A program made the position numbers and the translations under genes. The notes under the pieces are model-generated. The model was not told where the DNA came from. It did no database searches and saw nothing but the letters and a program-made list of their open reading frames with translations. This document shows positions 49,611 to 52,289 of a stretch of DNA of 64,000 nucleotides, piece by piece. Numbering within the stretch: the first letter of the stretch is position 1; the number at the start of each line of letters is the position of its first letter. The stretch lies in NCBI RefSeq assembly GCF_007556815.1, contig NZ_CP041745.1, forward strand, positions 2,457,001-2,521,000, given 5' to 3'. This DNA is from Paraburkholderia megapolitana (GTDB lineage Bacteria > Pseudomonadota > Gammaproteobacteria > Burkholderiales > Burkholderiaceae).

Positions 49611-50201
49611 TTAACTGTTGCGAAGACCGTTGATTATCAGACCCAGTCCAAATTCAAAGGCCACGTCGGGATCGATGGGACTTATCGCTGAGCCGGGCTG
49701 TGCTGCCGCGGTGTTCCTGTCCGTATCGGATGACGCACCGCCCGTGTCACGCGCCTGCTCTTCCAGCACGCAACCGAGCGTGAACTGACCCGCCGCCAGC
49801 AACGCCATCTGGGCGTCCGGTTCGCTGAAACCTGCACGCACAAGGTAGGCCACTTTCGGCACTATCCGCGCCAGCTCGTCCTGGTTCGGCGTGGTCCCCG
49901 CATGCAGCAGTGCGCCGTCACGATAAGTCAGAAGCGCACTGCGGAAGCTGCGCGCGTTATCGGCAAACCAGGCCGGCCAGTCTGCGCTGTCCTCGGGCAC
50001 GTCGAGCGTGTGGTGCCGCGTCAGCACCAAAGAGGCCATCTCGGCAAGAAGCGCCGACTTGTCGCGGAAATGCCAGTAGAGCGTTGCCGACTCCACACCG
50101 AGTTTCTCGGCAAGACGCCTTGTCGACAGGCCGTCCAGCCCAACTACGTCGAGGAGTTCCAGCGCCGCACTCACCACTTCGTCACGTCGAATTTTTGCCA
50201 C
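49611..50201 (-). CDS. TetR-class tetracycline repressor homologue
   Basis: This 196-residue repressor resembles classical TetR itself, not only the broad family. The helix-turn-helix GLSTRRLAEKLGVESATLYWHFRDK (about 24-48) keeps the TetR(B) positions T27, R28, T40, Y42, H44 and K48, with Q38 and P39 changed to S and A. Positions that bind Mg-tetracycline in TetR also line up without gaps: H64, N82, F86, H100, T103, P105 and E147; R104 and Q116 differ. It diverges from an FAD monooxygenase gene over a tetO1-like operator. Tetracycline or a related aromatic polyketide is the likely inducer, by inference. Confidence 0.88.
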   Translation of the reverse strand: MAKIRRDEVVSAALELLDVVGLDGLSTRRLAEKLGVESATLYWHFRDKSALLAEMASLVLTRHHTLDVPEDSADWPAWFADNARSFRSALLTYRDGALLHAGTTPNQDELARIVPKVAYLVRAGFSEPDAQMALLAAGQFTLGCVLEEQARDTGGASSDTDRNTAAAQPGSAISPIDPDVAFEFGLGLIINGLRNS

Positions 50202-50203
50202 GC

Positions 50204-50233
50204 TTGATTTTCTCTATCATTGATAGATATACT
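50204..50233 (+). promoter_or_regulatory. Probable promoter of the FAD monooxygenase gene
   Basis: A -35 candidate TTGATT (50204-50209) and a -10 candidate TATACT (50228-50233) are 18 bases apart. The first tetO-like operator fills the spacer and the second follows the -10 box, so repressor binding would block polymerase. Confidence 0.5.
50214..50226. promoter_or_regulatory. tetO1-like operator
   Basis: CTATCA-T-TGATAG is a perfect 6-bp inverted repeat. With its flanks it reads CTCTATCATTGATAGA (50212-50227), identical over those 16 bases to the core of Tn10 tetO1 as I recall it. It lies between the divergent TetR-like gene and the FAD monooxygenase gene. Confidence 0.75.
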
Positions 50234-50244
50234 TATCGCCGATA
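50234..50244. promoter_or_regulatory. Second tetO-like operator
   Basis: TATCG-C-CGATA is a perfect 5-bp inverted repeat, resembling the tet operator with central changes. Its centre is 19 bp from that of the first operator. A pair of operators between divergent genes is the Tn10 layout, although the spacing here is shorter. Confidence 0.5.
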
Positions 50245-50268
50245 GACTTTAGCACGAGGGAGTCAACC

Positions 50269-51894
50269 ATGCCTGTTTCCCCTATCCGCACATCGGTGCT
50301 CATCGTCGGTGGTGGGCTGGTCGGGCTGTCCGCCGGCCTGTTCCTGCAGCGTCTGGGTGTTCCCTTCATCCTCGTCGAGAAAAACGAGGGGGTTTCGCCA
50401 CTACCGCGTGCCCGTGGCATCCACTTGCGCACGATGGAGCTGTTTCGTCAGGTCGGCGTTGAGGACGCGGTCAAGGCAGCAGCGGCTGCGGCCTGGAAGC
50501 AAGGGGCGTTCGGTGGCGCGCGACGCGGGGAAACGCTGATCAACGCGGAATCGATCGTCGACGTCGCAACGATGCGCTCGAAGATAGCGGCGGCCGGTGC
50601 CTCGCCGTCGAGCTTCGGTGCGTGCCCGCAGACGCTGATCGAGCCAATAGTGCGCCAGCACCTGGAAACGCGCGGCGGCAATGTGCGCTTCGGTCATGAA
50701 CTCGTGTCGTTCGCCGAGTCCGGGTCCGGCGACGTCGTGGTCGCCACCGTACGTGCCAAAGATGGGCTGGAGACGACCATCGAGGCCAATTGGCTGCTCG
50801 CTGCCGACGGAGGGCGCAGCTTCGTGCGCAGACAGCTGGGTATCGGCATGAGCGAGACGCCCGCCCCCCAGCATCTGGTCAATATCTTCTTTCGCGCCGA
50901 TCTGGCTCAGGCCGTGGAGGGCCGCACTTTCAGCCAGTGCGAAATCGCGAACGAGAAGGTGCGCGGCCTGTTCCTCGCGATGAACAACACGGACAAGTGG
51001 TCGTTCCACCTCGAATACGATCCGGCGCAAGGGCCGCCGGCTGACAGCGCGTTGCCCGATCTGGTTCGGGCCGCGATCGGCCTCGCCGATGTCGATATCG
51101 AGATCCTGAGCCATGGCAGGTGGAGTACTGGGGTGTCGATTGCGGAGCGCTATCGGGTGGGTCGCGCTTTCCTGTGCGGCGACGCTGCGCACCTGATGCC
51201 GCCGTGGGGCGGCTTCAACGCCACGACCGGCATTGCGGATGCCCACAATCTCGCGTGGAAAATCGCTGCCACGCTGCGCAGTGAGGCGGGACCGGCGCTG
51301 CTCGACAGTTATGAGAGCGAGCGGCGGCCGCTGGCTGTGCGCAATGGCCATCAGGCGTTGTTGCGCTCGGATTTCGATGCGCGCTTTGGCATGGAAACCC
51401 CCGCCAACCGGGGGTTTTTTGCGGATCTGCTCGATTCCGGCGCCTTGTTGCTGCGGCATCGCTATCTCGATGCAAATATGTCGTCTGCCGGCGATACATC
51501 GGAGTTGGTCGCTCATCTGCAGGCGCAGACGGGGACGCGCTTCCCGCACGCCTGGATTCGACATAACGATCAACGGATCTCGACGCTGGATCTGTTCGGC
51601 GACAGCTATGTGTTGCTGGCTGGCCCAAAGGCGTCGGTGCAAGCGTCGAGTCGCCCTTCCCTGGACTCACGCACACCTGTCACCTATGTCGTTGGCAAGG
51701 ATTTCGCATTCGTCGATGACGAGGACAGCTGGTACACGTTGACGTGTCTGCCCGACGACGGCGTGGTGACTGTGCGGCCAGATGGATTTGTGCAGGAGCG
51801 CTCGGACGATGCGCTCGATCAGGGTATAAGGCGTTTCCGGAAGAACACGACTCGCTCGGTTTCTTCAAAGCCGAGTGCTCGATGCAATGCTTGA
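50269..51894 (+). CDS. FAD-dependent aromatic monooxygenase, candidate drug-modifying enzyme
   Basis: The 541-residue enzyme belongs to the p-hydroxybenzoate hydroxylase-type monooxygenases. Motifs are GGGLVGLSAGLFLQRLG (14-30) for FAD, the DG motif AADGGRSFVRRQLG (178-191) and GDAAHLMPPWGGFN (304-317). Length and the C-terminal thioredoxin-like part (about 430-510) match polyketide hydroxylases such as RdmE, PgaE and OxyS, or MhpA, rather than the shorter TetX. Control by a TetR-class repressor suggests a tetracycline-like or other aromatic substrate. The last 25 codons run across the end of the convergent AAC(6') gene and look unlike family sequence, so the original stop may have been lost. 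Confidence 0.85.
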   Translation: MPVSPIRTSVLIVGGGLVGLSAGLFLQRLGVPFILVEKNEGVSPLPRARGIHLRTMELFRQVGVEDAVKAAAAAAWKQGAFGGARRGETLINAESIVDVATMRSKIAAAGASPSSFGACPQTLIEPIVRQHLETRGGNVRFGHELVSFAESGSGDVVVATVRAKDGLETTIEANWLLAADGGRSFVRRQLGIGMSETPAPQHLVNIFFRADLAQAVEGRTFSQCEIANEKVRGLFLAMNNTDKWSFHLEYDPAQGPPADSALPDLVRAAIGLADVDIEILSHGRWSTGVSIAERYRVGRAFLCGDAAHLMPPWGGFNATTGIADAHNLAWKIAATLRSEAGPALLDSYESERRPLAVRNGHQALLRSDFDARFGMETPANRGFFADLLDSGALLLRHRYLDANMSSAGDTSELVAHLQAQTGTRFPHAWIRHNDQRISTLDLFGDSYVLLAGPKASVQASSRPSLDSRTPVTYVVGKDFAFVDDEDSWYTLTCLPDDGVVTVRPDGFVQERSDDALDQGIRRFRKNTTRSVSSKPSARCNA

Positions 51895-52289
51895 GCATGG
51901 GCATTGCCGACCTGTGTATCGGACGCGAATTCCATGCAGCCATGGTCAGATCCCCATTGACCGATAGCGGCACACAACGCACTCGCAATTCCTGCCCGGC
52001 GCATCTCCTGGACGACGTAAATACCTTCGAGAAACAGCACGGGTGATGTCTTGCAGCCGTTGACGTAGTCGCGACGCACCGCGGCTTCGGCAAAGCCAAT
52101 TGGTGCGTTATCGTCAGATAACACGATGAACGCCACATAGCGATGTGGGTCGGTGAGCAGTTCCTGAGCTTCGAGAAGGTGATCGTCGTCGCTGACGTGT
52201 TGCCAGAGCAGGCGTCGCAACGAACACCATGCCGAAATGTCACTGGGCAGAACCGCTCGAACCGTAAAAGAAACGTGAGGCACGCTCAA
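51819..52289 (-). CDS. Aminoglycoside 6'-N-acetyltransferase-like protein (AAC(6')-I type)
   Basis: The 156-residue GNAT protein carries marks of the AAC(6')-I group: ISAWCSLRRLLWQ near 18, IGFAEAAVRRDYVNGCKTSPVLFLEGIYV (about 63-91), and the C-terminal ALGFEETERVVFFRK. This group acetylates the 6'-amino group of aminoglycosides with acetyl-CoA. The gene ends inside the 3' end of the FAD monooxygenase gene (76-base antisense overlap). Whether it confers resistance or has a housekeeping substrate cannot be told from sequence. Confidence 0.82.
   Translation of the reverse strand: MSVPHVSFTVRAVLPSDISAWCSLRRLLWQHVSDDDHLLEAQELLTDPHRYVAFIVLSDDNAPIGFAEAAVRRDYVNGCKTSPVLFLEGIYVVQEMRRAGIASALCAAIGQWGSDHGCMEFASDTQVGNAHAQALHRALGFEETERVVFFRKRLIP

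Follow-up and report, generated by a model that had tools for sequence, protein, structure and literature searches.

A Tet-type repressor and two tetO-like operators beside a flavin monooxygenase gene in Paraburkholderia megapolitana

We describe a divergent gene pair of Paraburkholderia megapolitana, encoding a TetR-type repressor and a flavin adenine dinucleotide (FAD) monooxygenase, whose open reading frames are separated by 67 bases holding two tetO-like operators. The pair lies in a window of 64,000 nucleotides, the whole stretch of DNA that was analysed (positions 2,457,001 to 2,521,000 of contig NZ_CP041745.1), in a genome of 7.63 Mb. The repressor has 196 residues (49611-50201, minus strand) and a GTG start (relatives have ATG at the same codon); the monooxygenase has 541 residues (50269-51894, plus strand). 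Both frames had been placed correctly by an earlier reading of this DNA, the original prediction, which was also right that at this locus the switch adjoins a flavoenzyme instead of an efflux pump. Among the matches listed, the closest proteins are 96-97% identical and labelled Paraburkholderia megapolitana or Paraburkholderia. The locus reads as a classical tet cassette with another output gene. We consider it probable that the two genes form a portable detoxification unit that takes its drug-inducible control from the classical tet switch and is directed against tetracyclines or related metal-chelating aromatic polyketides.

The two operators lie between the start codons, 19 base pairs (bp) apart centre to centre. 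Operator 1, CTATCATTGATAG (50214-50226), is an exact palindrome that agrees with tetO at 10/10 core positions, and operator 2, TTATCGCCGATAG (50233-50245), is a weaker tetO-like site that agrees at 8/10. A palindrome with a weaker second one had been predicted between the genes, and both sites were located there; 16 bases, CTCTATCATTGATAGA, match what we take to be the sequence of tetO1. The 19-mer ACTCTATCATTGATAGAGT adjoins a TetA-type pump gene (locus L124). An equivalent of operator 1 and a second site were found in all of the loci where DNA linking repressor and enzyme was read (14/14 for each). More generally, each of 22 TetR intergenic regions holds exactly two sites with at least 8/10 core positions, whereas in composition-preserving shuffles a mean of 1.5 of the 22 regions, and never more than 5, had any site of that quality. 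These regions are linked to the GrhO5/RdmE-like enzyme (14), to another flavoenzyme (1) or to TetA-type pumps (7); they were picked for holding TetR, and the count describes the operators, not the frequency of the pair. The centres are 19 bp apart in Burkholderiales, 16 in Rhizobium and Pseudochrobactrum, and 21 on two Pantoea plasmids. Two Streptomyces plasmid loci likewise have two tetO-like sites, and 17 Enterobacteriaceae loci, scanned in full, have at least two. The window thus presents the tetO operator pair in a divergent promoter region by which TetR systems are recognised.

The operators coincide with candidate promoters of the monooxygenase. In the window, TTGATT-18-TATACT (50204-50233, plus strand) agrees with the consensus at 9/12 positions, a consensus match only, and has operator 1 in its spacer. 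An alternative, TTGATA-17-TAGACT (50220-50248, plus strand), also scores 9/12 and is overlapped by both operators; 31 of 200 shuffles scored as high. Two Paraburkholderia relatives (L009 and L038) have TTGACT-16-TATACT at the equivalent place, a 10/12 match to sigma-70 equalled in 3/200 shuffles, again with operator 1 in the spacer. Such a layout fits a promoter region that is blocked in two places.

The repressor has the domains expected of TetR, TetR_N (62.1 bits, Pfam cut-off 21) and TetR_C_1 (49.6 bits, cut-off 24), and structure comparison supports the TetR fold. Among NCBIfam models the tetracycline repressor equivalog NF010319 matches it best, at 214.6 bits against a cut-off of 265. We call it TetR-type rather than TetR because of this score. 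The alignment to TetR(A) and TetR(B), originally described as gap-free, is so up to about residue 160; beyond it there are gaps in the variable loop. Residues H64, N82, F86, H100, T103, P105 and E147 align in register with classical TetR; misregister had been named beforehand as a refuting outcome. The DNA-reading residues Q38/P39 are replaced by S/A, a change absent from the original prediction. N82, H100 and E147 are invariant in 27/27 enzyme-linked repressors, a set that includes near copies and shrinks to 21 when clustered at 90%. We also asked if these repressors form a single clade, which was rejected by the approximately unbiased test, as some repressors whose partner is different or unknown fall within the group. 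A wider group of 37 rows, free of TetA-linked repressors, has moderate support only (87/84). P0166 and P0180 were left out of this tree.

The partner was originally described as a 541-residue FAD monooxygenase akin to aromatic polyketide hydroxylases, and this description fits. The protein has Pfam domains FAD_binding_3 and Rng_hyd_C, and among solved structures it is closest to GrhO5, RubL, RdmE and 8fhj, the last a monooxygenase of Methylocystis. With a three-domain fold, a C-terminal Rng_hyd_C domain and the FAD fingerprints, it belongs to the class A flavin monooxygenases of the GrhO5/RubL/RdmE fold group. This placement is based on profile and structure scores (for NCBIfam, the best 25 of 54 families); no Tet(X)-type chains are among the structural matches listed. 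In RdmE, Tyr224 activates the substrate (PMC4515095); the aligned residue here is Glu225.

The identity of these relatives bears on the substrate. It is unlikely, though worth weighing, that the switch senses tetracycline-like drugs while the enzyme acts mainly on another polycyclic aromatic and affects tetracycline only incidentally. Rubromycin precursors, aklavinone or other natural products, rather than tetracycline, are the substrates of the best relatives in the Protein Data Bank; in the Foldseek ranking OxyS, which hydroxylates anhydrotetracycline, comes 44th. Set against this, sensor, enzyme and both operators stay together across genera, a linkage that favours a compound common to both proteins. 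We find it improbable that the enzyme hydroxylates phenols or quinones in catabolism or stress, under a repressor that answers to a plant or soil phenolic and with no antibiotic link: in the structural comparison HbpA is outscored by RubL, 8fhj, GrhO5 and RdmE, and the operators and metal-side pocket are those of TetR.

The 3' end of the enzyme gene deserves a separate comment. Homology ends near residue 515 (about position 51813), and nearly all relatives show none beyond. Residues 517-541 are modelled with a predicted local distance difference test score under 50, and the tail reads into a convergent AAC(6') gene. One could read this 25-residue tail, together with a gene fragment in genome G007 and a split gene in L046 (loss elsewhere), as the mark of an acquired unit that is decaying and may no longer work. 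We regard this as the least probable of the explanations considered, given that all 515 homologous residues are open, the FAD fingerprints are intact, and a 96% identical protein of equal length is known from P. megapolitana. The convergent gene itself (51819-52289, minus strand) encodes an AAC(6') of group E (170.8 bits, cut-off 140) and overlaps the last 76 bases of the monooxygenase gene. It was rejected as a partner, having no match in the 17 loci compared (their flanks span only 1.5-4 kb). A role of the pair in anti-phage defence was also rejected, since PADLOC matched neither repressor nor enzyme.

We read the DNA of the pair in 14 loci. These are the window, genome G022, Paraburkholderia sp. 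BL21I4N1, P. bryophila, Burkholderia arboris (a contig and a plasmid), B. cepacia, Achromobacter dolens, three Rhizobium, Pseudochrobactrum and two Pantoea plasmids. Thirteen more pairs were deduced from longest contigs of equal length in the lists of repressor and enzyme homologues, not from read DNA, and these entered the repressor pocket counts and both trees. In the enzyme tree, which left out the split genes L046 and L076, 26 of the 26 repressor-linked rows fall in one clade of 34 (Shimodaira-Hasegawa-like approximate likelihood ratio test 99). When eight other window genes were compared with 17 loci, nothing emerged beyond general ABC-ATPase similarity (25-28% identity). On this comparison the two genes and their operators look like a unit. 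That none of the eight neighbours is specifically shared also speaks against a phenol or quinone hydroxylase. GrhO5, RubL and RdmE being biosynthetic enzymes, one might suppose instead a tailoring enzyme of a host polyketide pathway with a pathway-specific TetR regulator. This is very unlikely: the unit sits among unrelated neighbours in the compared loci, and the two window frames of at least 600 residues encode an FAD_binding_4 protein and a MalT/LuxR-type regulator (no search was made for type II synthase genes, which are smaller).

The pair is rare. Among 34 other genomes of the same genus there is one full-length orthologue, as well as one fragment of the enzyme, in G007 (L019 1501-1809). 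Among 398 Pseudomonadota genomes, a close TetR (E ≤ 1e-20) occurs in 8, and the enzyme adjoins it only in the window's own genome. Among 392 Enterobacteriaceae genomes (the family of G234), 15 have a close TetR, at 17 loci; its neighbour is a TetA-type pump at 15 of these loci, a DHA2 pump at 2 and this enzyme at none. In a Stenotrophomonas metagenome-assembled genome the enzyme gene is split into two open reading frames (L046 3983-5519). On the Pantoea plasmids (583 and 634 kb; L079 90-7594 and L080 1-6599) a class A beta-lactamase gene lies near the pair. So does an additional flavoprotein gene, which has a gene of the MarR family divergent to it; the L079 flavoprotein scores 137 bits to Tet(X), for a cut-off of 750.

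Related switches have other outputs. A second pair of TetR and flavoenzyme with two tetO-like sites occurs at locus L082 (1477-3363) of a Pseudomonadota genome and on Streptomyces plasmids (L106 4841-6772; L107 4880-6769). A repressor related to that of the window here stands divergent to the flavoenzyme, again with two sites; the flavoenzyme, of 416-420 residues, is of another lineage, with PRK07588 and tetracycline destructase as best NCBIfam matches, both below cut-off (the latter, second-best, at 209 and 196 bits for a cut-off of 550). L082 and seven Streptomyces and Embleya plasmids share 73-76% DNA identity over 1.5-1.6 kb, and this identity suggests a transfer of the second pair between phyla. 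Two genomes of a single Enterobacteriaceae genus have a DHA2 pump (258 and 264 bits, cut-off 230) next to the repressor, in differing gene orders (L125 2320-5682; L126 5073-7682); their repressors are 98-99% identical to proteins labelled Klebsiella and Raoultella. Both genomes have a Tet(X)-like flavoprotein nearby; one scores 132 bits (cut-off 750), and the two are 51% identical. That flavoenzymes and pumps keep recurring in this company is the strongest circumstantial argument for a tetracycline-like drug as the compound sensed.

Several observations weigh against a detoxification unit for tetracycline-like compounds. Of the eight tetracycline contacts of TetR named in PMC8326586, six are kept here; R104T and Q116K, overlooked by the original prediction, are changed. 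Repressors beside TetA-type pumps vary at the same positions, with R104 in 17/21 and Q116 in 15/21 (L110-L113 are near copies, and the fragmentary L088 repressor was left out). K116 was tried as a marker of enzyme-linked repressors and ruled out, as it occurs in 5 of these 21. H64, a key contact according to PMC8326586, is lost in 8/27 enzyme-linked repressors. On the side of the enzyme, neither the RdmE model NF046069 (341.7 bits, cut-off 700) nor the MbnF model of methanobactin biosynthesis NF045577 (344.1 bits, cut-off 800) reaches its cut-off. The tetracycline destructase model NF033476 has no match at the locus, which rules out membership of that family, and five genome-wide at E ≤ 0.001, none over cut-off. 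A neighbouring clade of the enzyme tree holds 25 actinobacterial enzymes without this repressor (in the Kribbella locus L053 the divergent repressor has TetR_N only), and in Achromobacter deleyi an AraC-type regulator stands beside the enzyme copy instead of TetR. Scoring against the sigma-70 consensus gave no convincing promoter match in most other loci. Finally, tetO-like matches are not in excess: the window has 9 with up to three mismatches, one of them exact, for 9.09 expected, and the whole genome has 2 places with up to one mismatch, for 4 of a reversed control pattern. The significance of the operators lies in their position and conservation, not in their number.

We also considered a wider regulon. 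Only one further site in the genome comes within one mismatch of CTATCANTGATAG (L098 near 1500; G000:C1:505942-505954); it lies upstream of a FitA/VapB-like antitoxin open reading frame, which is followed by a toxin-like one. As the reversed control matched 4 times per strand, this site is no evidence for a regulon; antitoxin operators may resemble tetO by chance.

The systems most similar to the pair differ from it in several respects. It has in common with tetR-tetA efflux operons the divergent layout, the TetR fold, the metal-side pocket and two tetO-like operators, and differs from them in having a flavoenzyme rather than a pump as output, in R104T and Q116K, and in a repressor below the curated cut-off. 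The enzyme is about a third identical to the Streptomyces aromatic polyketide hydroxylases GrhO5, RubL and RdmE and, unlike them, is not in a recognisable biosynthetic cluster. With Tet(X) and the Tet(47)-Tet(56) destructases it has in common the class A flavin monooxygenase type and the proposed role; NF033476 has 386 positions, whereas the enzyme has about 515 homologous residues with Rng_hyd_C.

The closest precedent, which the original prediction did not name, is MabTetRx/MabTetX (MAB_1497c/MAB_1496c) of Mycobacterium abscessus, likened here by description and not by sequence. According to PMC6143652, this TetR-family repressor was shown experimentally to control an FAD monooxygenase, and it leaves an operator called tetO upon tetracycline or doxycycline, leading to induction. 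Those genes form one operon, whereas the window genes are divergent with two short operators. MabTetX (53.2 kDa with its tag; PMC9430549) is less than 25% identical to known destructases (PMC10944477). On its own it failed to make M. smegmatis or E. coli resistant (PMC9430549), and it also failed in another E. coli screen (PMC10944477), a warning that negative transfer tests may mislead. Within the openly licensed literature searched, this is the only TetR-controlled flavoenzyme acting on tetracycline that came to light. The principle is thus already known, and by analogy the window pair would be a variant with divergent genes and two operators.

The original prediction of a Tet-type switch on an oxidising enzyme stands as regards the regulation, supported by conserved anatomy: the divergent pair, two operators per region, the TetR fold and N82, H100 and E147. 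Tetracycline as inducer or substrate, like repression and resistance, is what we infer. As the conserved anatomy would have it, a repressor dimer on the two operators would silence both its own gene and that of the monooxygenase. A magnesium-chelating tetracycline, or a related aromatic polyketide, would enter the TetR-type pocket, where N82, F86, H100 and E147 are conserved, and free the DNA. The induced flavoenzyme, with the reduced nicotinamide cofactor NAD(P)H and O2, would then oxidise and so inactivate the same compound, as its family, its coupling to the repressor and the MabTetX precedent suggest. More speculatively, and with considerable doubt, the enzyme might found a further lineage of tetracycline-inactivating flavoenzymes, apart from the Tet(X)/Tet(47) type and with an added thioredoxin-like domain. 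It would move as a self-contained inducible tet-switch cassette among soil- and plant-associated Proteobacteria, including on large plasmids, and be missed by current destructase models. More broadly, TetR-tetO would sense metal-chelating polyketides in general, and its outputs would be interchangeable, among them TetA pumps, DHA2 pumps and two or more flavoenzyme lineages.

With one repressor, a 67-bp intergenic region and one enzyme, the question is directly testable either way. If the inducer is another polyketide, the pair would be a ready-made biosensor and a hint at the ligand of the tet switch before clinical tetracyclines. If the enzyme destroys the compound that is sensed, soil and plant bacteria would have, on chromosomes as well as large plasmids, an inducible drug inactivation that NF033476 misses. 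The locus suggests an inducible, as yet uncharacterised route by which a soil-type bacterium would disarm tetracycline-like compounds.
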